In this document: positions 13,168-56,429 of the stretch, piece by piece
Layout: the number at the start of each line of letters is the position of its first letter
Position numbering within the stretch: the first letter of the stretch is position 1
Assembly (NCBI RefSeq): GCF_022919715.1
Contig: NZ_CP095042.1
Coordinates: 4,030,001-4,094,000 of the forward strand
Reading direction: 5' to 3'
DNA: 64,000 nt
Source of the DNA: Agromyces sp. H17E-10
GTDB lineage: Bacteria > Actinomycetota > Actinomycetes > Actinomycetales > Microbacteriaceae
Made by a program: the position numbers and the translations under genes
The notes under the pieces: generated by a model
Told to the model about the DNA's origin: nothing
Database searches by the model: none
What the model saw: the letters and a program-made list of their open reading frames with translations, nothing else

Positions 13168-13171
13168 CCGT

Positions 13172-14161
13172 CTAGCGACCGATTCCGGTGCCGACGAGGC
13201 GACTGCGGCGAGCGTGTGAGTAGGCGAACGGCCGGCCGGCCGCATATCTGGCGGCGGGGTCGGTCAGTTCGATGATGTCGGCGGCGTTGACGACGAGGCT
13301 GGCGATGCCGTCCTGGATCAGCCGATGCGCTCCGGCGCTCGCGACCGAGGTGAGCGGCCCAGGGACGGCACCGACCGGACGGCCGAGCGCGTGCGCGAAC
13401 CCAGCGATGTGCAGCGAGGTCGAGCGTCGACCGGCCTCGACGACGATCGTCGCGCTGCCCAGCACGGCGACGAGCCGGCCTCGCTGCAAGAACCGCCATT
13501 TCGTCGGCGCAGTGCCCGGCGGGAGTTCGCTGAGCAGAAGACCCCCTGCGTCGGTGACGTGGGCGAAGAAGTCGTGGTGGCCGCTGGGGTAGGGCAGATC
13601 GAGTCCACCCGCGAGGACGGCAATCGCGTGCCCGGGAGCGATGTCGGTCGCGCTGCGGAGTGCGGCAGCGTCGATCCCGTACGCGCCTCCTGTGACGATC
13701 ACCTTCCCGCGGCCGGCCAGGTCGGCTGCGATGTCTGCCGCCATCCGATCGCCGTATGAGGTCGAGGCCCGCGCTCCGGTCATTGCGACTCGCTGTTCCA
13801 GCGGGACGTTCAGCGGTGCAATGTCGCCTCGTATCCAGATTGCGAGGGGTTCGCTCGGTCCGAGCTGGCTCAGCTCGGCGGGCCAGCGCTGGTCGCCGGG
13901 AGTGATCATGCGCAGTTCGTGCTGCTCCATTCGGCGCTGGATTCGTTCGTTCTCGCCAGGCGTGACCCGGGAAGCGAGCCGTCGACGCCAGAGCTCGCCC
14001 TCAGCCGGGTCGATGTCGGACGGAAGGGCGGTGCGTGAATCCACGAGCGCGAGGGCCTCGGAGGCGCCGAGGCGTTTGACGAGGGTGCCGGTGATGATGT
14101 CGGCCGGTTCGGATGCGGCGGCGAGCGTCATCCTCGCGTCACGTTCGTCGTCTGTGGTCAC
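13172..14161 (-). CDS. dprA: DprA/Smf-type DNA-processing protein
   Basis: A 329-residue DprA homologue. The Rossmann core is seen in VTGGAYGIDAAALRSA, AVLAGGLDLPYPSGH and ATIVVEAGRRSTSLHIA. DprA loads RecA on incoming single-stranded DNA in transformation; the role in a conjugative operon is unproven, and handling the entering strand is the natural guess. Start GTG 14161 is chosen over an upstream ATG because AGGAGG sits about seven bases before it. The usual DprA G-S-R-x(3)-Y motif reads TGARASTSYG here, a minor change. Confidence 0.85.
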   Translation of the reverse strand: MTTDDERDARMTLAAASEPADIITGTLVKRLGASEALALVDSRTALPSDIDPAEGELWRRRLASRVTPGENERIQRRMEQHELRMITPGDQRWPAELSQLGPSEPLAIWIRGDIAPLNVPLEQRVAMTGARASTSYGDRMAADIAADLAGRGKVIVTGGAYGIDAAALRSATDIAPGHAIAVLAGGLDLPYPSGHHDFFAHVTDAGGLLLSELPPGTAPTKWRFLQRGRLVAVLGSATIVVEAGRRSTSLHIAGFAHALGRPVGAVPGPLTSVASAGAHRLIQDGIASLVVNAADIIELTDPAARYAAGRPFAYSHARRSRLVGTGIGR

Positions 14162-39198: not shown

Positions 39199-40076
39199 GG
39201 TGCCTCACCTGCTCGTCGGGAGGTCTGCCCAGGATCGCGCCAGTGGTCTGCTGACGCCCGCGGCAGAGCGGCACGACGAACTGCAGATCGGATCGTGACG
39301 GCGATCTCCCGGTCGGAGAGTCCGGAACTCGCTGCCGCATCACCCAGGGCCCTCATGATTCCGTCGGGCGATTGGCCGGCCTCAGCGAGTCGGCAAGAAG
39401 CCCAGAAGAGCCCGTGGTTGCGCTCACCTTCCTGCAGCAGGCTCACCCAGGCGGCGAGGCGGGCAAGGTCTGCCGGTTCGCTCGGTGTCGACCAGTTCGT
39501 CGGTTCAGGCCGAGGATCGATCAGCTCACGGAGTGCCGAGGCGTCGACCGGATGCTGCGGGGAGGAGTTGATCGCGCAGACGCGATAGCTGGTCCGTCTG
39601 GTGCCGTTCACGAGTGTTGATGGCGGTACGACGACGTACCCACCATCGCCGCGAAAGTCGATGTGCGCGCTGGCCGACTGCCAACAGCGTTGCGGTCGAC
39701 GCGGCTCGGCGGGGAAGTAGATGTGCAGCCCACCCGATGGGGTCCGAACGCGAATCGCGTCACCGTCGACAAGGCCGGCTGCCTGTGCTGCCTCGAGTGC
39801 GGGGAGCCCAGAGCCGGTGTCGGTGATATCGACGTCGACGACATCGAATCCGGAAGTCGGCCCGGTCGGCATCGAGAGGTTCGCTGCCGGCCACTGCGAC
39901 CACCACACCCGGACGATCTCGAGATCGGAGGTCGCATCGTGGAAGCCGGCCGACGTCAGTGGCCGCTTGCCGTCAGGCAGGCAGGGGAACACCGGCACCC
40001 CCGCTTCCGCGAATTTCAGCGCCGCATCACGAGGGCTGAGCGATGCTACGGCGAGCATCACTTCTGCGATGTTCAT
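39186..40076 (-). CDS. Bifunctional DNA primase/polymerase
   Basis: A 296-residue prim-pol protein. The N-terminal domain carries GVPVFPCLPDGKRPLT, the catalytic DVVDVDI motif, the RTPSGGLHIYF motif and FRGDGGYVVVPPS. The C-terminal ~90 residues are helical and resemble the tail of element-borne primases. It would prime replication of the transferred strand. ATG 40076 overlaps the ArdC-like stop (ATGA). It ends inside the first codons of the DUF2637 gene. Confidence 0.85.
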   Translation of the reverse strand: MNIAEVMLAVASLSPRDAALKFAEAGVPVFPCLPDGKRPLTSAGFHDATSDLEIVRVWWSQWPAANLSMPTGPTSGFDVVDVDITDTGSGLPALEAAQAAGLVDGDAIRVRTPSGGLHIYFPAEPRRPQRCWQSASAHIDFRGDGGYVVVPPSTLVNGTRRTSYRVCAINSSPQHPVDASALRELIDPRPEPTNWSTPSEPADLARLAAWVSLLQEGERNHGLFWASCRLAEAGQSPDGIMRALGDAAASSGLSDREIAVTIRSAVRRAALPRASADHWRDPGQTSRRAGEAPCLR

Positions 40077-41149
40077 GCGAGCCGCCTCGACTGGATGCGC
40101 TCGAGCGTGCGACTCCGCGGCGCTGTCCGCGCCACCGACGAAGCCGAAGCGCGGGAGGGCGCGCGGGTGAGTCCGGGCGGGTCGCCGCCATTGAACTTCG
40201 TAGTCGGGAGCACGTCGAGAATGTCGCGGGCGGCGCGGCGGACGCGCTCGCCCGTGGCCTGTACGACTTCGACCGGGGTCTTGTCGGGGACAGTCGACGC
40301 CCACCCGGAGACGTACGGGATTGTGTAGTCGGTCGTGTCCATCCCGTGCGCGGCACCGATCATGAGTGCCACCGACTCGGCCTCCACCTCGCCGATGCCA
40401 CGATGAGGTGGCAACTCGGCGTTCTCGGTGGTGTCGTGGAGGCGGACGTGCGCGAGTTCGTGGGCGAGCGTCTTCACCTGCGCGGCTGCGTCGAGGTCGC
40501 CTCGGACGACGACCGTGCGCTTCACGAAGTCGGTGATCCCGTTCGCACCGCCGATTGCCGTGGCATCCATCACCGTCGTGAGCTCGAAACCGGCGGCGCG
40601 GATGAGCATCGCGAGGGCGGCTTCGAGGCCGGGTGGGGCCTCGCCCCGGAGGAGCTGCGGGACCGGCCGCACCGGGATCGGCCGGCCGTCGGTTTGCGAG
40701 ACGTCCCAGACGTAGGCGGGGCGAACGCCGGTCAGCTTCGGCCGAACGACTTCGCCAGGCCTTGGACGTTCGCCATTTCTGAGACGTCGCCACGACGTGA
40801 CATCGGTCGGATCGGCGGAGGCGAAGCGGGCAGTTCGCGGTGCGAGGATCGCGTACCCGTGCTGGCCCGCGAGCACGCGCCGGCCGAGCGTCTGCCACTG
40901 TTTGAAGCCGGCGAGGTACGTGGGCATCGGCTCGGGCACCGTGCCGCGCTCGAAGGCAGCGAGGTGCTGAGCCTGGATCAGCAGCATGTTGCCGAATGAC
41001 CGGGTGCGGAAGCGTGCTGCGAACTCCAACGACTGCTTCCAACTGTCACCGGTGACGAGGGCTTCGACAGCGGCTGTCAGGCGTTCATGGAGTTCAGCGA
41101 GCTTGGCTTCGTGGTCAGGTCGCGATTCTGGATTCCTGGGCACGTCCAT
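40073..41149 (-). CDS. ArdC-like ssDNA-binding/antirestriction protein
   Basis: A 358-residue protein with an ArdC-type N-terminal ssDNA-binding domain (residues ~10-130; ARFRTRSFGNMLLIQAQH) and a metalloprotease-like motif HELAHVRLH near residue 235. ArdC proteins shield incoming DNA from the recipient's restriction enzymes. Start ATG 41149 is preferred, with AAAGGTG upstream; the frame runs to 41311 without support. It is the first gene of the minus-strand operon and its promoter carries the repressor sites at 41314-41395. Confidence 0.82.
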   Translation of the reverse strand: MDVPRNPESRPDHEAKLAELHERLTAAVEALVTGDSWKQSLEFAARFRTRSFGNMLLIQAQHLAAFERGTVPEPMPTYLAGFKQWQTLGRRVLAGQHGYAILAPRTARFASADPTDVTSWRRLRNGERPRPGEVVRPKLTGVRPAYVWDVSQTDGRPIPVRPVPQLLRGEAPPGLEAALAMLIRAAGFELTTVMDATAIGGANGITDFVKRTVVVRGDLDAAAQVKTLAHELAHVRLHDTTENAELPPHRGIGEVEAESVALMIGAAHGMDTTDYTIPYVSGWASTVPDKTPVEVVQATGERVRRAARDILDVLPTTKFNGGDPPGLTRAPSRASASSVARTAPRSRTLERIQSRRLA

Positions 41150-41313: not shown

Positions 41314-41327
41314 TTGAGCATGCTCAA
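41314..41327. promoter_or_regulatory. Palindromic operator 1
   Basis: The 14-base perfect palindrome TTGAGCATGCTCAA. It lies just downstream of the predicted minus-strand start point, where a bound repressor would block ArdC-operon transcription. It is the best copy of a motif repeated three times in this gap. Confidence 0.7.
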
Positions 41328-41344: not shown

Positions 41345-41373
41345 TTTATAGCACTCGGTTTGAGCATGCGCAA
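41345..41373 (-). promoter_or_regulatory. Promoter of the ArdC/conjugation operon
   Basis: On the minus strand, TTGCGC (41373-41368) is separated by 17 bases from TATAAA (41350-41345). Operator 2 covers the -35 element. It would drive the long minus-strand transfer operon starting with the ArdC-like gene. Confidence 0.6.
41360..41373. promoter_or_regulatory. Palindromic operator 2
   Basis: TTGAGCATGCGCAA, one base different from the perfect copy. It overlaps the -35 box of the minus-strand promoter. Confidence 0.65.
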
Positions 41374-41376
41374 CCC

Positions 41377-41405
41377 TTGCGTTGGGCATGCTCAATTGCT
41401 AGGGT
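41377..41405 (+). promoter_or_regulatory. Promoter of the XRE regulator operon
   Basis: TTGCGT (41377-41382) is followed after 17 bases by TAGGGT (41400-41405). Operator 3 fills the spacer. It should start the XRE-ImmA-7TM-hydrolase transcript. Confidence 0.55.
41382..41395. promoter_or_regulatory. Palindromic operator 3
   Basis: TTGGGCATGCTCAA, one base off the perfect palindrome, located between the -35 and -10 boxes of the plus-strand promoter. A further half site, TTGCTCAA, follows at about 41411-41418. Confidence 0.65.
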
Positions 41406-41477
41406 GAGTTTTGCTCAATACGAGCGGGAGGTGACGCTCAGCCCTGCCTGACCCGAGGGGGAGAGGGACTGAATCAC

Positions 41478-41900
41478 ATGACCGAATACGACACGACTGC
41501 GGCAGCCGAAGACCTGGCGAAGCGCCTCCGGCTGCTCATCGATGTCGCTGCAGCCGAGACCGGCACGGAGCCGACCTACACGCAGATCGCCCAGTTCCTT
41601 GGCGAACGCGGTATCAAACTCTCGCGCTCGCGCTGGACCTACATGGTCAACGGTCATCGCGCCGTGCAAGACCGACGACTCCTCGAGGGGTTGGCGGCGT
41701 TCTTCGATGTTGAGCCTGAGTTTCTCGCCGGGGTGAGTGGTGCGGCGACGCCCGAGCGCGTGAGTGCTCAGCTCGACCTCGTGCGAGCGATGCGAGCCGC
41801 GCGCGTCAAGGCATACGCAGCTCGTGCGTTGGGCGACATCTCGCCCAACGCACTCAACGCGATCAGCAGGTACCTCGATGAGGAGATCGCGCATACGTGA
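41478..41900 (+). CDS. XRE-type HTH regulator
   Basis: A 140-residue regulator with an XRE/Cro-like helix-turn-helix in residues ~30-90 (TYTQIAQFLGERGIKLSRSR, then a second repeat-like helix at LLEGLAAFFDVEPEFLAG) and a helical C-terminal part. It is divergent from the transfer operon and lies next to the three palindromes, so it most likely represses both directions. Paired with an ImmA-type protease, it recalls ImmR of ICEBs1, whose repressor is cut to switch on transfer. The pairing here is inferred from order. Confidence 0.85.
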   Translation: MTEYDTTAAAEDLAKRLRLLIDVAAAETGTEPTYTQIAQFLGERGIKLSRSRWTYMVNGHRAVQDRRLLEGLAAFFDVEPEFLAGVSGAATPERVSAQLDLVRAMRAARVKAYAARALGDISPNALNAISRYLDEEIAHT

Positions 41901-41962
41901 ACCGGCGACGCGTCAGCGTCAAGGGTTACGAGCCGTAGACGTCCGAAGGGGAGGACGAAGCC

Positions 41963-42427
41963 GTGAACAGCGAAGGCGCAGTGTCGGCGACACTACCGGG
42001 GCTCGAGCTCGGCACGTCGTTCACGTTCAACGAGTTGATCGGCGCGATCGAGCGGCTGCGCGAGACCGCGATCCACATCGTTGAGATCCCCGAGCTGGGG
42101 GATGAGGCCGGCCTTTGTGCGCTGCTGGTCGAACGCGCGGGCGAAGATCTCATCTTCCACGCGCCGACCGAGTCGGCGCTGCACCGACAGCAATTCGTTC
42201 TGCACGAGTGCGCCCATCTCATCCTCGGGCACATCGACAGCGAAGACGCCGGCGCCCCCGACTTCTTGCTGCCCGACATCCCGCGTGAGACTCGACAACG
42301 GTTGCTTCGGCGTCAGAATCTCGACGACCCGGTCGAGATCGAGGCCGAATACCTCGCCGACCGGCTCGCAGCAGCGATTCGCTCGTCGGCTACGCACGAC
42401 ACTCGGTTCGTGGAGATCTTCGGGTGA
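41963..42427 (+). CDS. ImmA/IrrE-type metalloprotease
   Basis: A 154-residue zinc protease with HECAH (H81, E82, H85) in LHECAHLILGH and a downstream Glu in EIEAEYLADRLAAAI, the ImmA/IrrE layout. Start GTG 41963 has GGGGAGG about nine bases upstream. Such enzymes cleave a partner XRE repressor to derepress an element or stress genes. It is 62 bases after the XRE gene, and its stop overlaps the next start as GTGA. Confidence 0.85.
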   Translation: MNSEGAVSATLPGLELGTSFTFNELIGAIERLRETAIHIVEIPELGDEAGLCALLVERAGEDLIFHAPTESALHRQQFVLHECAHLILGHIDSEDAGAPDFLLPDIPRETRQRLLRRQNLDDPVEIEAEYLADRLAAAIRSSATHDTRFVEIFG

Positions 42428-43416
42428 CTGCGATCCTCGTTGCGGGTTTGATGTGGCTCCTCGTCGCGAGCTTGCTCATCCTGCGCCGAGGTCGAGTCGA
42501 GCGCGCGATCACGTGGGCGTCGCTGACGATCGCGATCGCGATGACGCTCAACATCGACGCGGTGTACGTCGAGCTCGACCGTCTTGCCAGTGGCACGAAC
42601 TTCGTCACGCTCGTCGCCGATCTCGCGCTCATGACTGGCGTGTTTCTCCTCGGCCGAGGCGTGATGAAAGCCGCGGACGAACCTCCCCGGGCGGTGCGCA
42701 CGGCGCTGAGCCGTGTGACGTATGTTGCCGCGGCGGCGGCTACGGCCGGCACGTTCTTCGTGATCGATCGAGACGCGACGACGACGAACTTCATGATCGA
42801 CTTCGGAGCCCAACCGGCGGCCATGGTCTACTCGATGGCGCTGTTCACGTACTACGCGGTCGTGCTCGCAGCGATGGCCACTGTCGCGATTCGGCAGGTC
42901 CGCGTCAGCCGTGGCATCCTCGTTGCGCCACCGATTCTGCTCATCATCGGATGCGCGTTCGGTATCGCTCTGACGGTCGACGTGATCCTGATGGATCTTG
43001 CGCACTTCGCCGGTCGTCCAGAGCTCATGGCTTCAGCCGCGACGCCCTACAGCACGCTGTACCTGTTGACCTTCGTGTTCTTGTGCGGCGGCTTCGCGAG
43101 TCAACCGGCCGCGCGCGCCTTCCGGGCGCGTGCCCGGGCCCGCGCAACTCAAACGCTGACTCGCGAGCTTGCTCCCATCTGGCATGCAGCTTCGGCGGTG
43201 CATCCCGGGATCAGCCAGCGTCCGGATGCCGCGTTCGACGCCACCGATCCCGAAGCGTTGCTGCATCGCCAGGTCGTCGAGGTCCGCGACGCGATGATCG
43301 ACACACGCGTTGCGTTCTCGATCAGTGACGCGGATCGTCAGGTGCTCGAGCGGGCGGAGCGGCATCTCGTCGGCGAGGATTCGAAGTTGCCGCAGCGGAC
43401 GCGGGTGACGGCATGA
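42424..43416 (+). CDS. MAB_1171c-family 7TM membrane protein
   Basis: A 330-residue protein. About seven hydrophobic helices span residues 1-240 (AILVAGLMWLLVASLLIL at the start). A cytoplasmic C-terminal domain of ~90 residues (LAPIWHAASAVHPGISQ, then VVEVRDAMIDTRVAFSISD) follows. This matches the MAB_1171c group, often called a putative transporter without proof. Its fixed place after XRE and ImmA genes suggests it senses or exports a signal. It is co-translated with both neighbours (GTGA and ATGA overlaps). Confidence 0.72.
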   Translation: MTAILVAGLMWLLVASLLILRRGRVERAITWASLTIAIAMTLNIDAVYVELDRLASGTNFVTLVADLALMTGVFLLGRGVMKAADEPPRAVRTALSRVTYVAAAAATAGTFFVIDRDATTTNFMIDFGAQPAAMVYSMALFTYYAVVLAAMATVAIRQVRVSRGILVAPPILLIIGCAFGIALTVDVILMDLAHFAGRPELMASAATPYSTLYLLTFVFLCGGFASQPAARAFRARARARATQTLTRELAPIWHAASAVHPGISQRPDAAFDATDPEALLHRQVVEVRDAMIDTRVAFSISDADRQVLERAERHLVGEDSKLPQRTRVTA

Positions 43417-44654
43417 GGGCCCGACGGGTCGTTGGCGGCGTCATCGCCGGCGGCGTTGTTGTCTCCGCGGCACTCGGAGGGCTCGGATACGTCATCGCCA
43501 GACGAGTTACTGCGCCGGTCGGTCCGCGCCGATTCGATCTCGTCGTGCGTGGGGTCGATGTCTCAGAAGAGCGAGTCATCGTCATCCTCACCCGGACCGC
43601 GCAGACCGCGACGCCCGGCCTGTTCAACCTGATCCTCGAGAACGGCACGTGGGTCAAGCTCAGCGAGAAGGTGCTCGACGTCAGCGCCGAGCTCGTCGGC
43701 CGCGAGGTCGTGGGTGACGTGGATCCCGAGGCGCTCACAGTCGGCACCCGGGCCTCGTGGAGTGGCATGTACTTCAAGACGCCCGCTGATGCCGGCTTTG
43801 ACGCCATCGATGTCGAGGTGTCAACGGAGTTTGGTTCCGCGCCGGCATGGCTAATCCCGCCGACAGACGTTTCCCAGGACATCTGGGCAGTCCACATCCA
43901 CGGGCTCGGAAGTCATCGGGCTGGGACATTGCGCGGCGTGCAGGTCGCGGCAGACGCTGGACTGACCTCGCTTGTCGTCACCTACCGCAATGATGGTGAA
44001 GGTCCGAGCGTTGGAAGTGCTCGCTCCACACTCGGAGCAACAGAGACGGACGACGTCGAAGCAGCCGTGCGCTACGCCATCGACCACGGTGCAGGAAGGG
44101 TGGTCCTGTTCGGATGGTCGATGGGCGGAACGATCGCGCTGGAACTCGCTGTGCGGTCGGCCCTTCGCGATCGAGTGGCCGGCCTTGTACTCGAGTCGCC
44201 GGTGCTCGACTGGGTTGAGACGATCAAGGCGAATTGCGGACGGGCCGGACTGCCAAAGAGCGCGGGCGCCCTGGCAGTGCCATGGTTGGATTCGTCACTC
44301 CTCGCACACTGTGCCGGTCTCACCGCACCAATTGGATTAAAAAGCGTCGCCTCCGTTGAGCGAGCTCGCACGCTACAGATTCCCGCCATTGTGCTGCACG
44401 GTGCCCGGGATACCTCGGTATCCGTCGATCTCGTCGCGCAGTTGGCGCACTCACATTCGACCATTCGAACTGAAGAGTTCGATGCTGATCACACAATGAC
44501 ATGGAACGTCGAACCCGACCGCTGGCGAACCCGCGTCGGAGGGCTGCTCGCCCAAGTGTCGCGTCATAAGCGCCAATCGATTGACCCTGCGCGGACAGGT
44601 TCACCCCGGCCCTGTAGGCGACCCGGCGAGATGCGGGACGACGGGATCGGTTGA
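43413..44654 (+). CDS. Membrane-anchored alpha/beta hydrolase
   Basis: A 413-residue protein with an N-terminal membrane helix (residues ~5-30). It has a linker or beta-rich region to about residue 140 and an alpha/beta-hydrolase domain. The nucleophile is Ser236 in GWSMGG, the Asp is in HGARDTSVS and the His in DADHTMTW. HIHGLGSHRAG forms the oxyanion region. It would face the outside if the helix is a signal anchor. The substrate is unknown. It closes the XRE-ImmA-7TM operon. Confidence 0.82.
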   Translation: MRARRVVGGVIAGGVVVSAALGGLGYVIARRVTAPVGPRRFDLVVRGVDVSEERVIVILTRTAQTATPGLFNLILENGTWVKLSEKVLDVSAELVGREVVGDVDPEALTVGTRASWSGMYFKTPADAGFDAIDVEVSTEFGSAPAWLIPPTDVSQDIWAVHIHGLGSHRAGTLRGVQVAADAGLTSLVVTYRNDGEGPSVGSARSTLGATETDDVEAAVRYAIDHGAGRVVLFGWSMGGTIALELAVRSALRDRVAGLVLESPVLDWVETIKANCGRAGLPKSAGALAVPWLDSSLLAHCAGLTAPIGLKSVASVERARTLQIPAIVLHGARDTSVSVDLVAQLAHSHSTIRTEEFDADHTMTWNVEPDRWRTRVGGLLAQVSRHKRQSIDPARTGSPRPCRRPGEMRDDGIG

Positions 44655-45078
44655 TCCAGTCGTGTGTCAACGTGCCCGGGACGCGTTCGAGGCTGTTCCG
44701 GCCTCACGATGCGCACTGCGTAACGTTAGAATCTCGCGGGCGTCGAACCGGAGCGAATTCGAGGCCGCGCCATTGCGAGGTGCCGCGCGAGTGACCAGCT
44801 AGGACGTGCACGTGGCCTCCTGCCACGTGCGGCGACCGTCGGGCCAGCAGGCGAATACTGAGCCGCGCGGGCGGGCTCCCGCATCGACCGGCACCTTGGT
44901 GCCGGCTGTGCGTTTTTCGACTCGCCGATCCCGCTCCGCCTTATTGATGCGTGGTTCCGATAACGGATGCATACCGATGCGCCGGTTTTGTACGAAAGGT
45001 AGGGGTGTTGACGTTTATGTTCATTCCCGCGGTTCCATTCCCGGGCCGGTATCAATGCTGTGGCCTCTGGAGGAAGCC
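44655..45078. other. Intergenic region with hairpins and RHS upstream sequence
   Basis: No gene is seen in these 424 bases; a longer frame reading into the RHS gene from 44806 lacks support. It contains an inverted repeat (44808-44830: GCACGTGGC, 5-base loop, GCCACGTGC), a terminator at 44888-44920, and AT-richer sequence before the RHS start. TTGACG at 45008 could be a -35 box, but no good -10 box follows it. Confidence 0.55.
44888..44920 (+). terminator. Terminator of the XRE-hydrolase operon
   Basis: An exact 8-base inverted repeat, CCGGCACC and GGTGCCGG, with a TT loop centre, followed by a TTTTT run seven bases later. It separates the hydrolase gene from the RHS gene. Confidence 0.7.
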
Positions 45079-48000
45079 GTGCGCCTTCGGAATCGTTTTA
45101 TGCTGGTCTCGTCACTGGTCTGCGCGCTCATCGTTGGCGTGGTGACGCCGGCGGGCGCTGAGGAGACCACTGAGCCGGAGCTCGCGACTGTCGAGGAGGT
45201 CCTTGACCTCCCGATGGAACAGTCCGCGGAGCCGGCAAAGGCCCCGGCTCCTGTTGTACCCGCCGGTGACACCCCGGCAGAATTGCCCGAGGCGGCCGAG
45301 GCCAGCGCTGTCGAGGCGGAAGAGCCGTTCCAGTTGGATCCCGAAGCGCCGCTGCCACCTGAGTCGGACATCGTTGATCGGGGAGAATTCGAGACGACCT
45401 ACGACCTCGGCGACGGGGTGAGCATGGTGGATCTCTCGCAGGAGCCGCAGAACATCAAGATCGACGGCGAGTGGGAGACCATCCAAACCGCGGTTGACGG
45501 GACGGGATTCTGGTCGTTCCTCGGGTTCGGCGGCGGTGAGGTTGCGAAGCACCCGTTGCGCCCCGAGTTCGCCGAGACTGCGAGTGACGACGGCATCTTG
45601 CGTCTCTCGAAGGATGGCTACGACATCGCATTCACACTTGTGGACGCTGGCGGCTCGAAGCTCGTGCGAGATCTGAATCCGTGGTCTGGGGAGCGATCGC
45701 GGGTTGTCTACGGGGACGTGTTCCCAAACACCGATCTCGTGTTCGATGTTCGCACCGGCGGGGTGAAGGACCTGTTCCAGCTGAAGGAAGCGCCCGGGTC
45801 GGATGGTCGCGTTTCGTGGGAATGGTCGATCGATACAGACGGGCTCGACATGGTCGAGCTCGAGGACGGCACGATCGAACTGCGGGACTCGGAAGACACG
45901 CCCGTGTTTGTGATTCCGGCTCCCATGATGTGGGACTCCGCCGGTGAAGTCGGCGAGCAGGACCAACCCAATGCAACTCAGGACGTGCAGGCAGCGGTCG
46001 TCGAGGATGGCGATCGCTGGCGCCTCACGTTGAAGGCCGACCGCGACTGGCTCAACGACGATGCTCGCGTCTATCCCGTGACTGTGGACCCCGAGGGCAC
46101 CTACGGGTCGAACGATGTCAAGAGCATCAAGTCGAACGGCCAGACGAACTCGTTCTACGGAGTCCAGGTCGGCAACACCAACGAAACAGGGATCTGGCGG
46201 ACCTGGGCAGACATTGATTACGAGGGTCTGTTCGGCAAGCAGGTGCTCGACGTCGTGATGGACTTCGACCTCCTTTCATCTGACTCCACGACAACAACTC
46301 GGACGAACTATGTCCATGTGGGTACCTCGCTGACGTATGGCGGCTATGGGGCCGTCTTGGGGCCCTTCGTCGGCGGTACCGGATATGCGTACGCAAACGA
46401 TAGTCGTCTGTCAAAGCAGATCTCGGACTGGGTAAATGCTCGCGCTACGGGGAAGTACGTTGCGATGCGCGGCGAAGAGATCAACGGCTACACCTACAAG
46501 CGTTACGCATCACTGCACACACGCGTGGCATACAAGAGCTTCCCGACGCCGGGATCGCCTTCTTCGCCCGCGAATGGCGCGTTGGTGGACTTGACGCCGA
46601 CGCTGAAGTCGACGGGGGCGACGTCGGCGGCTGGGTATCAGGTGTCGTGGCGATTCATTGTGGGAACGTCGTCGGCGGTGTGGGACACGCGGGTGTGGGA
46701 CTCGGGATGGGTCGGTTCGACCGGGATCGGCACCTCCGAGGCGACCGTCCCGGTGAATGAGCTCGAGCCTGGGAAGAAGTACTACTGGAAGGTCGACATC
46801 CACGACACCGCTGACGGGCACTTGGGAACGTCGACAGTAGATAGTTCGTCGGTGTGGTCGTTCACGACGAACAAGCCGGGCATGCCGGCTGAATCGACCG
46901 CGTCCCCGGTCGAGGGCGCGAAGCTCGCGACGTTGACCCCGACGCTGACGACGGGGCGAGTGACGAACGGGGCTGGCCAGCAGGTGCAGTACAAGTTCCA
47001 GGTGACGTCGGGTTCGGATGGCAAGTCCGGTCTCGTCGCGTCGTCGGGGTGGTTGGCTGCGCCGTCGGACGGGTCGAACCCGAAGTGGGTGCCACCGGCA
47101 GGCACGCTGCAGGACGGCGGCAAGTACTACTGGACGGTGCTGACGAAGGACAGCATCGAGGAGTACGGCCCGGTGTGGACGAACGCCTTCCAGATCGATC
47201 TACGGGTCGGTGCGCCAGGGCCGGCGCCGGTCGATCAGGCCGGGCCGGTGAGCGTGAATCTCGGCAACGGCAACCTGAATCTCTCGTTCGCTTCGCCCAT
47301 GGTGTCGACCGCGGGCGGCCCGATGGGGTTGACCTTCAACTACACGCCCGCACGCGATGACCGCGGTCTGAACGCTGCGTACTACGACGCAACACCCGCG
47401 TCGGGAGTCACGTTCGATCCACAGATCGGGTCGCGTAAACCGGTGCTGATCCGCACCGATCCAATGGTGAGTTTCAAGTGGGCAGCTGAGCCTGCACCAT
47501 CAGTTCCCGCGAACGACTTCATCGTGAAGTGGACCGGATTCATCAAGCCACCCGCTGCGGGTACATACACGTTCGGTATGGTCCGCGACAACGGCGCAAA
47601 GCTGCTGATCGACGGCAAGACAGTCATCGACAAGTACACCGACACCTGGACGTCAGGGGCGATCGAGTGGGCTCCGGCGTCGACCGTGATGACCGCGGGC
47701 GCGGTCCCGTTCGACCTGCAGTACTTCGATCACACGGGTGGAGCGGCCGCGCAGCTTTGGGCTCGCGACGAAGCGACCGACAAGGAGTTCATCGTCCCGG
47801 CTGATTGGTTCACCCGGTCGGTGCCGACGCTGCCGCAGGGGTGGGAGGCCTCGGCGCCCGTTGCGGGGTCTGGTTCGACCTACGTGACTGTGCGGGCGAC
47901 CGATACCACGCTGGTGTTCACTGACCGCTCCGGTGGAGTGCACACGTACACGAAGGCGTCGAAGGGCGGCTACACCGCCCCGACCGGCGAGTACGGGGTC

Positions 48001-51000
48001 GCGAGCCTGGACACGAAGGGCAACGTCACCCTGACTGATTCCGATGGGGTCGTCTACGTGTTCAACGCGGCCGGCAAGCTGCAGGAGACCGCCGATCCGC
48101 TGGATGGGAAGAAGCCCGCGACACCGAAGATCACCTACCGGTCCAACGGCAGCCCCGACCGGATTTCGGACCGGTTGTCGTCGGACGATGCCGCGACGCC
48201 CAAGTACTCGCGCGAGGTGCGATTCGCATACGGTTCCGACACACTCGCAGCTGTGGGGCTGCCGGGTGTCGGTCCTGCGTGCCCGGTGCCATCGGGCACG
48301 TCGTACGCGGCGCCGGACCCGGAGAAGCTGTGCCGGATCATCTACCCGGGCTCGACCGGACAAGACGACACCACCCAACTGTTCTACGACTCATCTGACC
48401 GGCTGGTCGCGATAATGGACCCGGGCGCTGAGACGACGCACTTGCAGTACGACTCGAAGCGGCGCGTGGTCGGCGTCCGCGGCCCGTTGGAGGTCGACTG
48501 GCTGACCGATTCCGGCACCGCTCCGTCCGACGCGAATCGAACCACGATCGCGTACGACGCAGCGGGCAAGGTCGCGAGTGTCGCGCTCGCGGCGCCCGAC
48601 GGAGTCACGCTCGCGAACCGGCCGATCAAGCGATACACGTACGGCAGCGGTACGAGCTACGTCGATGTCGACGCGCTAGCGGTGCCAACGGATTCGGTCT
48701 CGAACGGGCACGCCCGCACGGTCACGTTCGACTCCGCCCTGCGCCAGACGTCCGATCGAAGCGCGCTCGGGCTCACGGGCACCACGGTGTGGAACGACAA
48801 GGACCAGCAGTTGTCGTCGACCGACCCGCAGGGGCGGATGAGCACCACCCTGTACGACTGGGCCGACCGCCCGACTGACACCTACGGGCCTGCGCCGGCG
48901 GCATGTTTCGACGCGAGCCGTAAGCCGATTGCGACGTGCGCGATCACGCCTGCCCACTCGTCAACGAGGTACGACGAGGGATTGACAGGGCTCCAGGGCG
49001 CCTATTTCGACAACGCGACCCTGTCCGGTGTCCCTGACGTGTTCGCTGCCGGGGTCGGCGGCGCCGGTGGGGCGATCGACAAGAACTGGGCGGCCGCTGC
49101 AGCTCAGACTGGGCTGCCGATCGACAAGTGGTCGGTGCGGCTGACCGGGGTGCTCACCTTCCCCGCGGCCGGTACCTACAAGTTTGAGACGTACGCGGAT
49201 GACGCGACCCAGATCTGGCTCAACGATGTCCTGGCGCTTGACAATTGGCAGACCGGTGCTCTCCGGTCGACCGAGGTGAACATCACCGCGACTGCGGGCG
49301 AACGCAAACGCATCCGCCTGCAATACATGGACGACACGGGCGACGCACGCCTCGTTCTGAAATGGACGCCGCCGGGCCAGACCACGTCCGTCACGATCCC
49401 GGGAGCAAGCCTGTCGCCGGGCTACGATCTCGCAACGTCGACAACGACCGATGACAGCGTCGCGGCCGCGACCGGTCTGCCGACCGATTCCGCACCTTCG
49501 ATCACGACGACAACGAAGTATGGCAGCACGCCCTGGCTCGGACTCCCGACGGAGTCGACCGTCGACCCGGCCGGTCTCAAGCTCACGACACGCACCGGGT
49601 ACGAAGCGGAGGGCGACGGGTACCTCCGTCGGACCAGCCGCATGCTCCCAGCCGGCGTCGCTGCTGGCGCAACCGTCGCAGAGGCCGGCACCACCTACGC
49701 GTACTACGGGGACAAGGAGACCCTCGGTCAGGCGTTCAACACGAGCGATGCGATCTGCGGGGTTGCCGCGGCAACACCTCAGTACGGTGCCCTCCGCAAG
49801 TCCACCCCGCCGGCGTCGGTGGACGGCACGAGGGTCGTCACCGAGTTCGTGTACGACCTGTTCGGACGCGCGGTCGGTTCGAAACGCAGCGGCGACGACA
49901 GCTGGTCGTGCACGAAATTCGACGCACGCGGCCGAACAGTCGAGGTCAAGACGCCCGCGTATGGTGATGAAGCGGCGCGCACTGCGACGTTCGCGTTCGC
50001 CGTCGGCGGCAATCCGCTCGTCACTCGCGCGGAAGACTCCGCGGGCCAGCTCACGACGACCAGTGACCTTCTCGGCCAAGTCACCGCGTACGTCGACGTG
50101 TGGGGCACGACCACGCAAGTCACCTACAACCGTCTCGGGCAAGCAACGAAGACCCTCGTGACACCTCCCGTCGGGCCGGCGACGACGACCGAGGCTACGT
50201 ATGACCTCGATGGCCAGGCTGAGACCGTCAAGGTGAACGGAGTGCAGGTTGCCGACCCCAGCTATGTGGCGGGTCAGCTGGCGGGCGTTGCGTATGGCAA
50301 TGGAAGTTCGCTCACGAGCATTCAACGCGATCATGTGGGCTCGGTGTCGTCGACGACCTGGCAGTTCTCGGGCGGGCAATCGTCGGTAACAGACACGGTC
50401 GTGCGTTCGCAGTCGGGCCGGGTTGTCGCGAACACACTCAGCGATGGCAGCTCACAGTACGTCTCGCAGTACCGTTTCGATACCGCCGGCAGACTCGTGA
50501 AGGCAACGCTTCCGGGCCGCACGCTCGAGTACGGGTTCGCCGCCACAGGTGGGTGCGGCGTGAACACGCTTGCCGGGCTGAACGACAACCGCACAAGCAA
50601 GACCGAGACGCCAGACGGCGCCGCGCCGGTCACCACGACATACTGCTACGACCAGACCGACCGGCTGACCTCCTCGAGCGTCACAGGTGCGCCCGCCGGT
50701 CCTGGCCTGTCGCCCATCGGCGCCGGACTTGCCGCGTCCTCCCTCGGGTACGACGCGCACGGTAACACGACGAGTTTGGCCGACCAGGAGCTCGGATATG
50801 ACGCCGCCGACCGGCACACCACGACAGCGTTGGATGACGGTACTCAGGTGGAGTACCTGCGGGACGTCACCGGCCGTATCGTGCAGCGCACCGAGTCCAC
50901 AACCACCGGGGACCCGGTGATCGTTCGATACGGCCACTCCGGTGGTGGCGACGCGCCATCTCTCATCCTCGACGCGGCTGGGGCGCTGCTGCAGTCGGTG

Positions 51001-51912
51001 CACGCCCTCCCGGGCGGCGTCGCGATGAGTATCACCGCCGATGGGCAGTCATGGTCGTACCCGAACCTGCATGGTGACATCACCGTCACCGCCGACCAAG
51101 CCGGTCTGCGCGTGGCCGCGGTACTGAGGTACGACCCCTTCGGTGGGCCGATCGATCCGGCCTCCGGGCAGGCAGGCACCGTAGTCGGGGATGATTCGGG
51201 GCTCGACACGCTCCCTGGTTCGGCAGACTGGGGTTGGCTCGGTACCAACCGCAAGCTCACCGAACACGCCGGGTCGATCATGACGATCGAGATGGGCGCC
51301 CGCCAGTACATCCCCGCACTCGGCCGGTTCCTCGAAGTCGACCCGGTCGAAGGCGGCGTCACCAATAATTACGACTACCCTGCTGACCCCATCAACGGTA
51401 CGGACCTTAGCGGGACGCGGTTGGATTGCGGCAATGCGTGCTACTTCAGGGGGAAGGCTGTGACCGCACGAACAACTGGCGGATACAACTATTCAAAGAG
51501 CTACACCGTACAGTTTGGAGATCGGCACACGTATTCGTCGAGTCGTGCAGCCTTCAAGCACTTCAAGTCGAATCTGTCCTCCATCTTCCCGCTGTCAGGG
51601 CTTCCCAACAATCCGAAGCCTGGCCAGAAGATTAGCCTCGGTGTGATGGGCGTGTTCTCGAATCCGGCGAAGGTGGTCGCCGTTGGTCCGACGTCACTGA
51701 GTCTCGCTTCCCTGCCAGGTCATGCGGAGGGTGCGGGAAACGTGATTACCTTCTCACTCAGCGACGGCGGCAGTAAGTTGAATGTAGATGCAGTCGGGCC
51801 AAACGGAGGATGGAACCCGATTCCCGATTTGCTCTGGCCGATCCTTGCGTCACGCACGTGCACCGCATTCAACCCGGATATGCCATCACGCTGGTGCGGC
51901 ACTCGGTACTGA
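45079..51912 (+). CDS. Secreted RHS-repeat polymorphic toxin with two PA14 domains
   Basis: A 2277-residue protein. Start GTG 45079 has GGAGG five bases upstream and gives a signal peptide (basic start, hydrophobic core, PAGA cut near residue 27). In order: acidic Pro/Ala region, a beta-rich DNRLRE-like domain (~300-480), fibronectin-like repeats (~490-720), PA14 domain 1 (~760-905), YD/RHS repeats, PA14 domain 2 (~1305-1437), more RHS repeats, and the conserved RHS core ending [20 protein letters not shown] with DLSGT (to ~2111). The last ~166 residues are a distinct tip with four Cys and no known family, presumably the toxin. RHS shells enclose such toxins and release them by self-cleavage. 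The membrane protein next door is the likely immunity partner. Confidence 0.9.
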
Positions 51913-52939: not shown

Positions 52940-52967
52940 CTTGTCGGCGTGATTGGGGGTGGCGCGG

Positions 52968-55900
52968 GTGACGGTGTCGATGCGGGTGATGAGCGCCGGG
53001 GACGGGTTCCGGTATCTGCTTCGCACGGTCGTGGCCGACGATGGTGAGCGGTCGCTTGCGACGCCGTTGACGCGGTACTACGAGGCGAAAGGCACGCCGC
53101 CAGGGAGGTGGATGGGCGGCGGTGTTGGCGGGCTTGCCGGCGGTGTGCTCTCGGCCGGCGACGCGGTCACCGAGGAGCAGCTTCAGTTGCTGATCGGCCT
53201 CGGCCGTGATCCGGTCACCGGTGATTCGCTCGGGCGTTCGTTCCCGCAGTATGAAAGCGGCAGCAAGCGTGCGGTGGCGGGGTTCGACTTCACGTTCTCG
53301 GTGCCGAAGTCGGCGAGCGTGCTGTGGGGTGTGGCGGATGCGACCACGCAGGAGATCATCGTGCGGGCGCACCACGGAGCAGTTGCGGAGGTGGTGGCGT
53401 TCATGGAGCGCGAGGTCGCCGCGACACGCACCGGGGTCGCGGCCAGTGACGGGGCGGTCGCGCAGGTCGACGTGACGGGGTTGGTTGCGACGGTGTTCGA
53501 TCATTTCGATAGCCGTGCGGGGGATCCGCACCTGCATACGCATGTGGTGGTGAGCAACAAGGTGCAGACCGTGCTTGACGGCAGGTGGCGCTCGCTTGAT
53601 GGGCGTCCGTTGCACGCTGCGGTCGTCGCACTCTCGGAGCTGCACGAGGCGCTGTTCCAGGATGCGCTCACGCGTGCGGTCGGTGTCGAGTGGGAGCAGC
53701 GCGACCGTGGCCGTGATCGCAACCCAACGTGGTCGATTGCATCGGTGCCTGAACCACTGATCGCGGAGTTCTCGACGCGTTCACGCCACATCGACGCGGC
53801 GACCGATCGCCTGATCGCCGCCTACGTCGAAGCGCACGGCCACCGCCCAAGTCGGGCGACGATCATGAGGCTTCGCGCGCAGACGACGCTGTCGACGCGG
53901 CCTGAGAAGCAGGTGCGTTCCCTCTCTGAGCTCACCCATGGCTGGCGGGAGCGCGCAACCGCTGTTCTCGGGCAGGATGCCACGGCATGGGCGCGTGTTG
54001 CGTCCGCCGACGTTGCACCGCTGGTGTTGCACGCCGAGGATGTGCCGCTCGATGTCGTTGCAACGCTCGGCGGGCGGGTATTGCGTGTGGTGTGTGAGAA
54101 GCGTGCAACCTGGCGGCACTGGAACCTCGTAGCCGAGGCTGCACGCCAGACGATGCAGTACCGGTTCGTGACGACTTACGATCGCGAGGCACTCATCGGG
54201 CTCGTCGTCGACGCGGCCGAGCGTGCGTCGTTGCGGATCACACCACCCGAGCTCGCGACGAGCCCGGCCGTGTTCCAACGCGATGACGGCACGAGCGTGT
54301 TTCGCCCGAAGCACTCGACCGTCTACACCTCGGAGGTGTTGCTCGACGCCGAGGCACACCTCCGCGAATGTGCCGCGACCACGACCGGCCCGACTATCCA
54401 GTCGGCGATCGTGCGCGAGGTCGCCCGACGAAGGCTCCGAGGTGGCGCCCGCCTCGGTGCTGATCAGGCGGCCGCGTTGGAAGCGATCGTCGGTTCGGGT
54501 CGCGTCGTGGATGTACTGGTCGGACCGGCCGGCGCTGGCAAGTCGACGGTGATGGGCGCGCTTCGCCGCGCCTGGGAGAGCGAGTACGGTCGCGGCTCCG
54601 TGATAGGTCTCGCCCCGTCGGCGGCGGCCGCGCACGTGCTCGCCGTAGATCTCGGCATCGCGACCGAGAACCTCGCGAAGTGGTGGCAGAACCACCTCAT
54701 CCACGGCGACGCATTCCATGCCGGCCAGCTCGTGATCGTGGACGAAGCCTCCCTTGCGGGCACGCTTGCGCTCGACCGCGTGAGCGCCCTCGCCGCGCGG
54801 GCGGGGGCGAAGGTGCTGCTCGTCGGGGACTACGCGCAGTTGCAATCCGTGGACGCGGGCGGCGTATTCGCGATGCTCGTGCACGATCGCCCCGACCCAC
54901 CCGAGCTCGTGGACGTGCACCGGTTCGTCAACGGCTGGGAGAAGACCGCATCGCTCGGGCTGCGACGTGGCGACGTGGCATCCATCGACCGGTACCTCGC
55001 ACACGACCGGGTACGGGAGGGTGAGAGTGAGGTGATGGCGGATGCCGCCTACGAGGGCTGGCGCGCCGACGCCCGCGCGGGCCGGGTGAGTGTGCTGATC
55101 AGCGACTCGAACGACGCGGTCGCGGCGCTGAACGAACGGGCCCGCACCGATGCGATCCTCGACGGCCGCGTCGACGCCCTGCACGAGGTCGCCCTGCACG
55201 ACGGCACCCGCGCCGGGGTGGGCGACACGATCATCACCCGCCGCAACGACCGGCGTTTGCGTGCCGGCCGGGGATGGGTGCGCAACGGCGACCGCTGGAC
55301 CATCCTCGCCGTGCACCGGTACGGTGCGCTCGAGGTCCGCCGGCACGGGTATCGGTGGGGGAGCAGTACCTTGCTGCCCGCCGAGTACGTGATCGAGCAC
55401 GTCGAGCTCGGGTACGCCGTGACCGCCCACCGCGCCCAGGGCCTGACGACCGATACCGCGCACGTGGTCGTCGCGCGTGGCATGACCCGCGAGAACTTCT
55501 ACGTCGCGATGACCCGCGGACGCGAAGCGAATACCGCCTATGTTGCCCTCGACCGGCCGGATGTCGCCCACACCGGTATTCGACCCCGAGACGACGCCGA
55601 CGCAACCGCCGAGTCGGTGCTGACCGGCGTGCTCCAGCACGTCGGAGCAGAGCTCTCCGCGCACGAGATGCTCGCGGCCGAGCAGGAGGCGTGGGGCTCG
55701 ATTGCGCAGCTCGCCGCGGAATACGAGACCATCGCCGCCGCCGCCCAGCGCGACCGTTGGGTCGCAGCCGTGGGCGACTGCGGGCTCACCGCCGAACAGG
55801 CGGACACCGCCATCAACTCGGACGCGTTCGGCCCACTCGGGGCCGAACTCCGACGGGCTGAGGCACACGGCGCGGGCGTCGCGCTATTGCTGCGACGCGT

Positions 55901-56429
55901 GGCCGGCGAGCGCGGGTTCGATGATGCGGCCGACATCGCTGCGGTCCTGCGCGCACGGGTCGCGCGCGCCCTGATGCAGGATGCTGCAGCCGGACGTGCA
56001 GCGCATACGCGACGCTTCGTCGCGGGACTGCTGCCGGTCGCGAGCGGCCCGATGGACGCCGCGTCCGAGCGTGCTCTACGCGAGCGGGTCAGCCTCATCG
56101 AGGCGCGAGCAACGGCGTTGGCCAAGCACGCCGACGCGGCGGCGGAGCCGTGGTTGCGTGCGCTCGGCACCGCGCCAACCGGCGCAGCCTCGGCCACGTG
56201 GTGGCGCTGCGCGGCCACCGTCGCTGCGTACCGCGACCGCTACCGGATCGTCGGCGGCCGACCGCTCGGCATCGGGCAACCAACATCCGACGCCCAGAAG
56301 GCGGATGCTGCGCGCGCCCGGGCCGCGCTCGAAGCTGCCCGGCGCATCGCGGATCAGGAGATCAACCCGTCACTGGCTTATGGGCCGAACGTCACGCCCG
56401 GTCTTTCGGATGTCGGTCTTCGGGTCTAA
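52968..56429 (+). CDS. TrwC/MobF-type relaxase-helicase
   Basis: A 1153-residue relaxase. The N-terminal nicking domain starts MTVSMRVMSAG, with candidate Tyr residues at 16 and 37/38 and the HUH metal motif HLHTH at residues 188-192. A RecD-like helicase follows with Walker A VGPAGAGKST near residue 518, LVIVDEASLA, and LVGDYAQLQSVDAGG. It nicks the origin of transfer and unwinds the strand for export. GTG 52968 gives the usual MobF N-terminus; TTG 52953 is an alternative. The transfer origin should lie in or near 52551-52967. Confidence 0.93.
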   Translation: MTVSMRVMSAGDGFRYLLRTVVADDGERSLATPLTRYYEAKGTPPGRWMGGGVGGLAGGVLSAGDAVTEEQLQLLIGLGRDPVTGDSLGRSFPQYESGSKRAVAGFDFTFSVPKSASVLWGVADATTQEIIVRAHHGAVAEVVAFMEREVAATRTGVAASDGAVAQVDVTGLVATVFDHFDSRAGDPHLHTHVVVSNKVQTVLDGRWRSLDGRPLHAAVVALSELHEALFQDALTRAVGVEWEQRDRGRDRNPTWSIASVPEPLIAEFSTRSRHIDAATDRLIAAYVEAHGHRPSRATIMRLRAQTTLSTRPEKQVRSLSELTHGWRERATAVLGQDATAWARVASADVAPLVLHAEDVPLDVVATLGGRVLRVVCEKRATWRHWNLVAEAARQTMQYRFVTTYDREALIGLVVDAAERASLRITPPELATSPAVFQRDDGTSVFRPKHSTVYTSEVLLDAEAHLRECAATTTGPTIQSAIVREVARRRLRGGARLGADQAAALEAIVGSGRVVDVLVGPAGAGKSTVMGALRRAWESEYGRGSVIGLAPSAAAAHVLAVDLGIATENLAKWWQNHLIHGDAFHAGQLVIVDEASLAGTLALDRVSALAARAGAKVLLVGDYAQLQSVDAGGVFAMLVHDRPDPPELVDVHRFVNGWEKTASLGLRRGDVASIDRYLAHDRVREGESEVMADAAYEGWRADARAGRVSVLISDSNDAVAALNERARTDAILDGRVDALHEVALHDGTRAGVGDTIITRRNDRRLRAGRGWVRNGDRWTILAVHRYGALEVRRHGYRWGSSTLLPAEYVIEHVELGYAVTAHRAQGLTTDTAHVVVARGMTRENFYVAMTRGREANTAYVALDRPDVAHTGIRPRDDADATAESVLTGVLQHVGAELSAHEMLAAEQEAWGSIAQLAAEYETIAAAAQRDRWVAAVGDCGLTAEQADTAINSDAFGPLGAELRRAEAHGAGVALLLRRVAGERGFDDAADIAAVLRARVARALMQDAAAGRAAHTRRFVAGLLPVASGPMDAASERALRERVSLIEARATALAKHADAAAEPWLRALGTAPTGAASATWWRCAATVAAYRDRYRIVGGRPLGIGQPTSDAQKADAARARAALEAARRIADQEINPSLAYGPNVTPGLSDVGLRV

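Follow-up and report, generated by a model that had tools for sequence, protein, structure and literature searches.

The window analysed here is a stretch of 64,000 nucleotides (C1:4030001-4094000) from the genome of Agromyces sp. H17E-10, which consists of a single 4.25-Mb contig. At 41478-44654 it contains four genes on one strand, encoding an XRE DNA-binding protein, an ImmA/IrrE-like zinc metalloprotease (ImmA), a seven-transmembrane (7TM) protein and an alpha/beta hydrolase (Table 1), and the open reading frames (ORFs) confirm the gene set that an earlier note on this DNA had claimed. The four linked genes are probably an on/off switch, with a membrane input, for DNA transfer in the conjugative elements of soil actinobacteria.

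Gene layout and operator array

Two of the three gene junctions in the unit are overlaps of 4 nt, GTGA between ImmA and 7TM and ATGA between 7TM and hydrolase, as expected from the coupling proposed in the earlier note for genes that touch; the XRE and ImmA genes do not touch and are separated by a gap of 62 nt. Third-position GC content is elevated in the XRE (0.76), ImmA (0.81) and 7TM (0.79) genes, and in the hydrolase gene it is 0.70, merely equal to the first-position value. A hairpin followed by a T run ∼230 nt beyond the last stop codon is a plausible terminator for the unit. The single shared terminator of the earlier note thus has a candidate, but a terminator motif scan gave no match at the 3' end of the unit (four matches in total, compared with 2.6, s.d. 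1.7, in shuffled sequences).

Table 1. Positions of the unit, its predicted control sites and the conjugation genes discussed in the text (window coordinates).
Feature	Position	Strand	Basis
XRE, EspR-like DNA-binding protein, 140 aa, presumed repressor	41478..41900	+	ORF reading and structure-sequence profile search
ImmA/IrrE-like zinc metalloprotease, 154 aa, HECAH, GTG start	41963..42427	+	ORF and alignment
7TM protein with cytoplasmic tail, 330 aa, DUF6545, MAB_1171c-like, GTG start	42424..43416	+	Family models
Alpha/beta hydrolase, 413 aa, N-terminal hydrophobic anchor, GWSMG, triad S236-D333-H360	43413..44654	+	Pfam and alignment
O1, perfect palindrome TTGAGCATGCTCAA, candidate XRE operator just downstream of candidate leftward promoter PL	41314..41327
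O2, TTGAGCATGCGCAA, candidate operator overlapping candidate PL -35	41360..41373
O3, TTGGGCATGCTCAA, candidate operator within spacer of candidate rightward promoter PR	41382..41395
PL candidate -10, TATAAA, with TGn extension 41353-41351	41345..41350	-	By eye
PL candidate -35, TTGCGC, 17-nt spacer to -10	41373-41368	-	By eye
PR candidate: -35 TTGCGT 41377-41382, 17-nt spacer, -10 TAGGGT 41400-41405	41377..41405	+	Conserved columns, by eye
Possible terminator: hairpin (44888-44905), then TTTTT (44913-44917)	44888..44917	+	z -2.69
Hairpin without T run	44808-44830		z -1.46
ArdC-N and M78 gene, divergent, presumed first of leftward operon	40073..41149	-	PF08401 E 8.7e-06, PF06114 E 7.1e-05 (scanned from 41143)
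TraG/VirD4-type coupling protein (T4CP)	11341-13245
TrwC relaxase	52953-56429		293.6 bits

Upstream of the XRE gene, several predicted operator sites (O1-O3) are placed between the divergent candidate promoters of the XRE gene (PR) and of the leftward operon (PL). These three sites are the sole places in the 4.25-Mb genome with at most one mismatch to the TTGAGCATGCTCAA-type palindrome, compared with one place in the whole genome for a reversed control pattern; with up to two mismatches allowed, three sites are found in the window against 0.13 expected from shuffling. In an alignment of 19 loci chosen from the relatives described below, sites like O1, O2 and O3 are shared, often with a fourth, at spacings of ∼46, 22 and 22 bp. 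The fourth site, 22 bp past O3 in many relatives, is degenerate in the window (∼41404-41417). The invariant columns of the alignment match a leftward extended -10 element and a rightward -35/-10 pair, as assigned by eye, and the TA and TG columns of the PL -10 are invariant across all 19 loci. The promoter motif scan of the window, the results of which were near chance, missed the PR candidate. O2 covers the candidate leftward -35 and O3 lies in the candidate rightward spacer, and the array therefore has the layout of a repressor.

Recurrence and carrier elements

A same-genus search returned 11 loci with a near-full-length 7TM gene, all of which carry the four genes in order; a further six loci, belonging to other families within the order, have XRE- and ImmA-like genes and no hydrolase match. 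A larger set of 58 loci (numbered with the prefix L) was found via the 7TM gene in named genomes; 37 come from Agromyces, Cryobacterium or Microbacterium, many are close kin and so not independent, and the set overlaps the 11 same-genus loci, probably sharing genomes. All four genes are near full length in 47 of the 58, with identical order and strand throughout. The ImmA/7TM overlap is exactly 4 nt in all 47, and the 7TM/hydrolase spacing is -4 in 37 and between -43 and +37 nt in the remaining ten (with start codons picked no more than 12 codons away from where the profile begins). The loci outside the 47 are at contig ends (L088, L092, L096 and L099), hold all four genes with an XRE too divergent for the profile (L097 and L098) or have a broken or missing gene, possibly owing to draft errors (L057, L069, L075, L093 and L095). 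Because the set recurs in both searches, a one-off chance pile-up of genes is ruled out.

The operators recur with the genes. The perfect palindrome is present in 49 of the 58 loci, a number that rises to 51 when one mismatch is allowed. The 905,698 bases of these loci contain 150 sites within one mismatch, every one of them 29-175 bp upstream of the start of the XRE gene. The two loci with a divergent XRE, L097 and L098, have no TTGAGCATGC operators. L098 has another repeat at ∼6643-6683 (TTCCCATATGGGTAGCG and a variant) with a spacing of 22 bp, a possible operator changed along with its XRE. Beyond the unit, 36 of the 58 loci have an ArdC relative, 41 have a DUF2637 relative and 57 have one or more additional genes related to the element in the window (primase-polymerase rows excluded).

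More distant 7TM relatives define the core of the unit. The 35 distant loci retained are a part of the places matched (weak partial matches L017-L019 and L022-L024 were excluded) and were viewed with flanks of 1.5 kb. An ImmA-like ORF adjoins the 7TM gene in 31 (downstream of it in one, L143), so the 7TM gene is not found mostly apart from XRE-ImmA, the outcome that the earlier note had named as refuting; an EspR-like XRE is present in at least 23. The hydrolase is dispensable for the core, because nearly all of these loci have XRE-ImmA-7TM without it. In nine (L003, L004, L005, L016, L148, L149, L150, L156 and L169), triads that lack the hydrolase, the 7TM gene is followed by the gene of a small relative of PAP2-like membrane phosphatases; Pfam PAP2 was matched by seven of the eight scanned (E 1e-6 to 3e-3), one of them over the cut-off, and some copies appear on reading to lack catalytic motif residues. 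From these counts, XRE-ImmA-7TM is the core and a membrane hydrolase of some kind a recurrent partner. An apparent 7TM-PAP2 fusion in L169 was rejected, as that frame has no 7TM match and the two frames overlap.

A translated search found 12 plasmid records with a 7TM relative, nine of them typed conjugative. Five of the six plasmids examined (NicSoilE8-2, a Citricoccus plasmid, pAAG24-152, an Arthrobacter sulfonylureivorans plasmid and pAO1; three typed conjugative, one mobilizable and one non-mobilizable) have the order ImmA-7TM-hydrolase-XRE on one strand, with the XRE gene moved to the end, and the sixth, the non-mobilizable pYJN5-1, has XRE-ImmA-7TM and no hydrolase match. The plasmid 7TM proteins are only ∼29-32% identical; since the set survives a changed gene order and carrier at this divergence, the four genes are likely to work together. 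The grouping of the 7TM and hydrolase genes with the protease-repressor pair in the earlier note is supported. Near the start of the unit, five of the six plasmids (L173, L174, L176, L177 and L178) score palindromes of other sequence that are likewise centred on CATG (TTGAAACATGTTTCAG, GGAACATGTTCC and ATTAGACATGTCCAAT); the site of L175 was picked by eye and is below the score threshold. In the nicotine-degradation plasmid pAO1 (L177, NZ_CP089294.1), the 7TM protein and hydrolase are not among the entries of an incomplete gene table.

Near-identical units occur in distant hosts. The 3.1-kb unit of a Leifsonia metagenome-assembled genome (MAG) is 100% identical to that of Microbacterium sp. 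BR1, the units of Granulicoccus phenolivorans and Agromyces mediolanus share 99.9% identity, and at L062-L070 and L094 the unit is ∼97-100% identical across Leifsonia, Leucobacter, Microbacterium, Granulicoccus, Propionicicella, Sediminivirga, Agromyces and MAGs. Microbacterium and Granulicoccus belong to different orders, and these near-identical units therefore point to recent, broad transfer of one element between genera and orders. A search for near-identical plasmid copies of one locus (L066) gave no match. The accessible parts of a paper on the sad cluster of Leucobacter GP and Microbacterium BR1 mention TrwC relaxases, and the words ImmA and XRE were not found in them (PMC6868719).

In the window, the genes to the left of the unit encode the ArdC-N protein, a primase-polymerase (PF09250), a DUF2637 protein, an M23 peptidase and, further left, the coupling protein, and the TrwC relaxase lies to the right. 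Judged from these predicted products, the unit is part of a conjugative element, flanked on one side by its replication/transfer genes and on the other by its relaxase. This position, the operator array and the recurrence on conjugative plasmids bear out the link between the protease-repressor pair and transfer control that the earlier note had drawn. Between the unit and the relaxase is a 2368-aa ORF (44806-51912) with repeats read by eye as RHS/YD-type; it looks like an insertion, because the relaxase gene closely trails the hydrolase gene in L043, L061 and L085. The window contains no tRNA gene. A second, diverged TrwC relaxase elsewhere in the genome (G000:C1:2829532-2830410), ∼9 kb from a tyrosine integrase at 2839140, probably belongs to another conjugative element.

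The four proteins

In a search of solved structures, the XRE profile (positions 10-119 of 140) matches four EspR chain sequences with E values of 6.7e-06 to 1.1e-05. The sole other match below 0.001 is an engineered chain (7e-4), which leaves EspR of Mycobacterium as the only natural significant relative among solved structures. By this profile, the XRE is EspR-like and homologous over most of its chain. EspR is reported to repress its own gene, with a proposed repression loop and TTTGC-type sites (PMC3315491). In two genomes of one genus (L163 and L164) an EspR copy adjoins, and is convergent with, an ImmA-like/7TM pair; judged by sequence, the regulator there is EspR proper, the L163 copy scoring 228 bits against solved EspR. 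Such a link is not common in the family concerned: the 7TM gene was found in just two of 61 family genomes, from one genus and with that of the query included.

Residues E82 and H85 of ImmA and the downstream Glu/Asp are kept in 57 of 57 aligned proteins and H81 in 56, many of the rows being close kin, and ImmA is thus predicted to be competent for catalysis. Pfam M78 (IrrE/ImmA) is matched at E<=1 by nine of 12 near members (best E 0.0028) and by 16 of 21 wider members (best 1.6e-4), and one plasmid member is annotated as ImmA/IrrE.

The 7TM protein has six hydrophobic peaks, and a seventh helix (∼94-115) was assigned by reading. It scores 24.8 bits to DUF6545 (PF20182), just above the gathering cut-off of 24.4, and DUF6545 is matched at E<=1 by all 46 rows of a wide 7TM alignment. 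Scores to the MAB_1171c subfamily model NF042915 (80.9 and 85.2 bits) are under the curated cut-off of 100 bits, so the protein belongs to the MAB_1171c/DUF6545 family in the broad sense and below the NCBI subfamily cut-off. The family is named 'putative transporter', and no demonstrated function was found in the literature. The earlier note knew of no described system with this gene set; a limited literature search, in which sources were available in part, agrees in finding no published description of the four-gene set, but the 7TM family itself already bears an NCBI name. Four of the 46 relatives match the Pfam sensor domain HisKA_7TM (best E 7e-05). Conservation is highest in helices 1, 2, 3 and 7 and the loop 116-131 (segment limits set by us) and somewhat less in the tail helix (276-318). 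A search of solved structures with the 7TM profile gave no useful match.

The hydrolase matches Pfam Hydrolase_4 with 37.4 bits. Its GxSxG motif and Ser-Asp-His triad are intact in 51 of 51 relatives, many of them close kin, and this invariance suggests an enzyme competent for catalysis. Of 40 members, 34 carry more net positive charge on the C-terminal side of the anchor helix than on its N-terminal side, four carry the same on both sides (3 and 3 in the window hydrolase) and two carry less. Under the positive-inside rule these charges make the hydrolase lean towards a cytoplasmic, membrane-tethered location, and the extracellular enzyme of the earlier note is not supported. The wider family is common without the unit, with matches in at least 57 of 296 genomes of the phylum, including a second copy in this genome (at most six candidates were scored per genome). 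Twelve sites of such cousins were viewed and ten were recovered by ORF picking; their conserved Microbacteriaceae neighbours gave no functional clue. A branch supported at 94/97, just under the starred mark of the tool, separates the hydrolases of integrative and conjugative elements (ICEs) and plasmids from the others (39 chosen rows), and the ICE hydrolases alone have a branch support of 94/95 (52 of 81 rows after thinning); L097 has a long branch in both trees. Set against the refuting outcome named in the earlier note, the evidence for the hydrolase is mixed.

In nine relative pairs, the ratio of nonsynonymous to synonymous substitution rates (dN/dS) is 0-0.41 in 35 of 36 gene comparisons, is undefined in one owing to a dS of zero and as a rule is highest in the hydrolase. 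Median identity is 0.78 for the XRE, 0.66 for ImmA and 0.56 for both the 7TM protein and the hydrolase. The 7TM and hydrolase distances correlate best (r 0.964, compared with 0.833-0.913 for the other five pairs), which fits a working pair but could also reflect a shared rate.

A proposed transfer switch and its known counterparts

We propose a derepression switch of the ImmR/ImmA kind in which the 7TM protein is a membrane regulator of the protease and the hydrolase acts on a ligand; taken as a whole, we consider this reading somewhat more probable than its negation. The EspR-like XRE would bind the CATG-centred palindromes between the two divergent promoters and silence the leftward ArdC/primase/transfer operon and probably also the operon that encodes it, and ImmA would be the antirepressor protease that inactivates it. 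This default-off control of the leftward operon, with relief by ImmA, is likely because of the analogy with ICEBs1 and TnSmu1. The 7TM protein, made in step with ImmA through the 4-nt overlap, would hold or activate ImmA at the membrane according to a signal, so that the two would form a two-protein counterpart of BlaR1-BlaI; from the pairing of the genes and their fixed overlap, the balance tips slightly in favour of the 7TM protein governing ImmA. The hydrolase would make, remove or modify a membrane-borne ligand read by the 7TM protein, a tentative assignment that we rate at rather less than an even chance.

Several observations weigh against the proposal. The XRE passes no Pfam cut-off (HTH_31 is sub-threshold at E 0.019), the window ImmA matches no Pfam model at E<=1 and the ImmA profiles match no solved ImmA/IrrE structure. 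No ImmA-7TM fusion occurs among the 120 of 170 relatives listed. L045 and L095 have an ordinary XRE yet no operator with at most one mismatch, the sites of L043 are altered, and on the plasmids palindromes of any centre are expected at 0.18-0.38 per region by shuffling, so that a single one comes close to a chance finding. Just one of the 35 distant loci has a hydrolase match, a weak one, and the topology of the enzyme is ambiguous. Tyrosine integrase (PF00589), the one recombinase family searched for, is absent from the window, att sites and element ends lay outside the analysis, and the mobility of the element itself is therefore unproven here. Finally, what the sequence shows is the set of genes with its order and overlaps, the operator array, the catalytic residues and the linkage to conjugation genes on chromosomes and plasmids; we infer repression, cleavage, 7TM-ImmA contact and every statement about a ligand, and the processing and sensing of an ester, lipid or peptide put forward in the earlier note is likewise unproven.

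The gene order and rates that we describe could also be read with the 7TM protein and hydrolase as outputs. XRE-ImmA would then be an ordinary DNA-damage switch of an ICE, and the other two proteins would serve the envelope, in mating-pair formation, entry exclusion or remodelling, without feedback. It would suit such a role that the hydrolase has a wider family of actinobacterial cousins beyond the elements, that the plasmids place the XRE gene after the hydrolase gene and that the 7TM protein and hydrolase diverge faster than the XRE and ImmA, as exclusion or surface proteins would; but the ImmA-like neighbour of most distant 7TM genes within the flanks viewed is a better fit to a regulator, and the constant ImmA/7TM overlap also speaks against this account, which we consider quite unlikely. 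It is very improbable that the unit is a toxin-antitoxin or anti-phage module of the XRE-ImmA type merely riding on conjugative elements. ImmA does match capP, of the CBASS CapH/CapP kind, in PADLOC, weakly (E 0.013), but there is no further match at E<=1 for the four proteins, to which the scan was confined; the operator array, the sole one in the genome, faces the ArdC/transfer operon; and a toxin reading of the Streptococcus mutans pair was tested and unsupported, according to PMC10233336.

Two further readings of the switch differ in what the membrane input would be. In one, narrower than the proposal above and overlapping it, the 7TM protein senses the lipid or envelope state of the host under membrane stress and the hydrolase resets the switch by degrading the ligand. 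The PAP2-like genes beside distant 7TM genes would suit this, as would the report that a MAB_1171c knock-out in M. abscessus makes about half the biofilm (∼50% less; PMC8707978). Most PAP2 matches are under the Pfam cut-off, however, some copies seem to lack motif residues, no ligand is known and sequence cannot tell this version from one of cell-cell signalling; we regard it as rather unlikely. In the other, a self-contained form that we consider unlikely, the hydrolase makes or destroys a membrane-borne lipid or ester signal, the 7TM protein detects it as a receptor and lets ImmA go, and ImmA takes away the EspR-like repressor; the element would thereby sense the surrounding cells, carriers or recipients, and switch on its transfer genes. 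If true, actinobacterial ICEs and pAO1-type plasmids would share a counterpart of Rap/Phr that is not a peptide system and is received at the membrane, and EspR would be a regulator that left such a switch.

To our knowledge, based on a narrow literature search, little has been described on when actinobacterial conjugative elements decide to transfer. The unit rides on elements that have recently moved between genera and orders, and also on the nicotine plasmid pAO1. Its candidate operators, its presumed protease and substrate and its possible membrane receptor can all be put to the test. For the MAB_1171c/DUF6545 family, so far unexplained, it suggests a function that can be examined, and it places EspR in a wider setting.

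Among known systems, a switch of the ImmR/ImmA type has several operator sites between divergent regulator and transfer promoters. Like ImmR/ImmA of ICEBs1 and TnSmu1, the unit places a helix-turn-helix regulator beside an HExxH protease on one strand of a conjugative element, facing the transfer operon. The window regulator is EspR-like rather than demonstrably related to ImmR. Switches of this type take their input through RecA or Rap/Phr, but none of the four genes is a Rap or Phr gene; the operon instead encodes a 7TM protein and a membrane-anchored hydrolase. The default-off logic that is proposed here has been reported for ICEBs1 (PMC6540685). The unit would be set apart from the ICEBs1 ImmR/ImmA system by its different input, the cleavage of its repressor being presumed. 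EspR differs in scale, being reported as nucleoid-associated with hundreds of sites, whereas the XRE palindrome, counted at up to one mismatch, forms one cluster in this genome. In BlaR1, sensor and protease are parts of a single chain. The likeness of the unit to BlaR1/MecR1-BlaI/MecI, compared by description only, lies in membrane input, metalloprotease and repressor loss, and the difference is that in the window the 7TM protein and the protease are encoded by separate genes.

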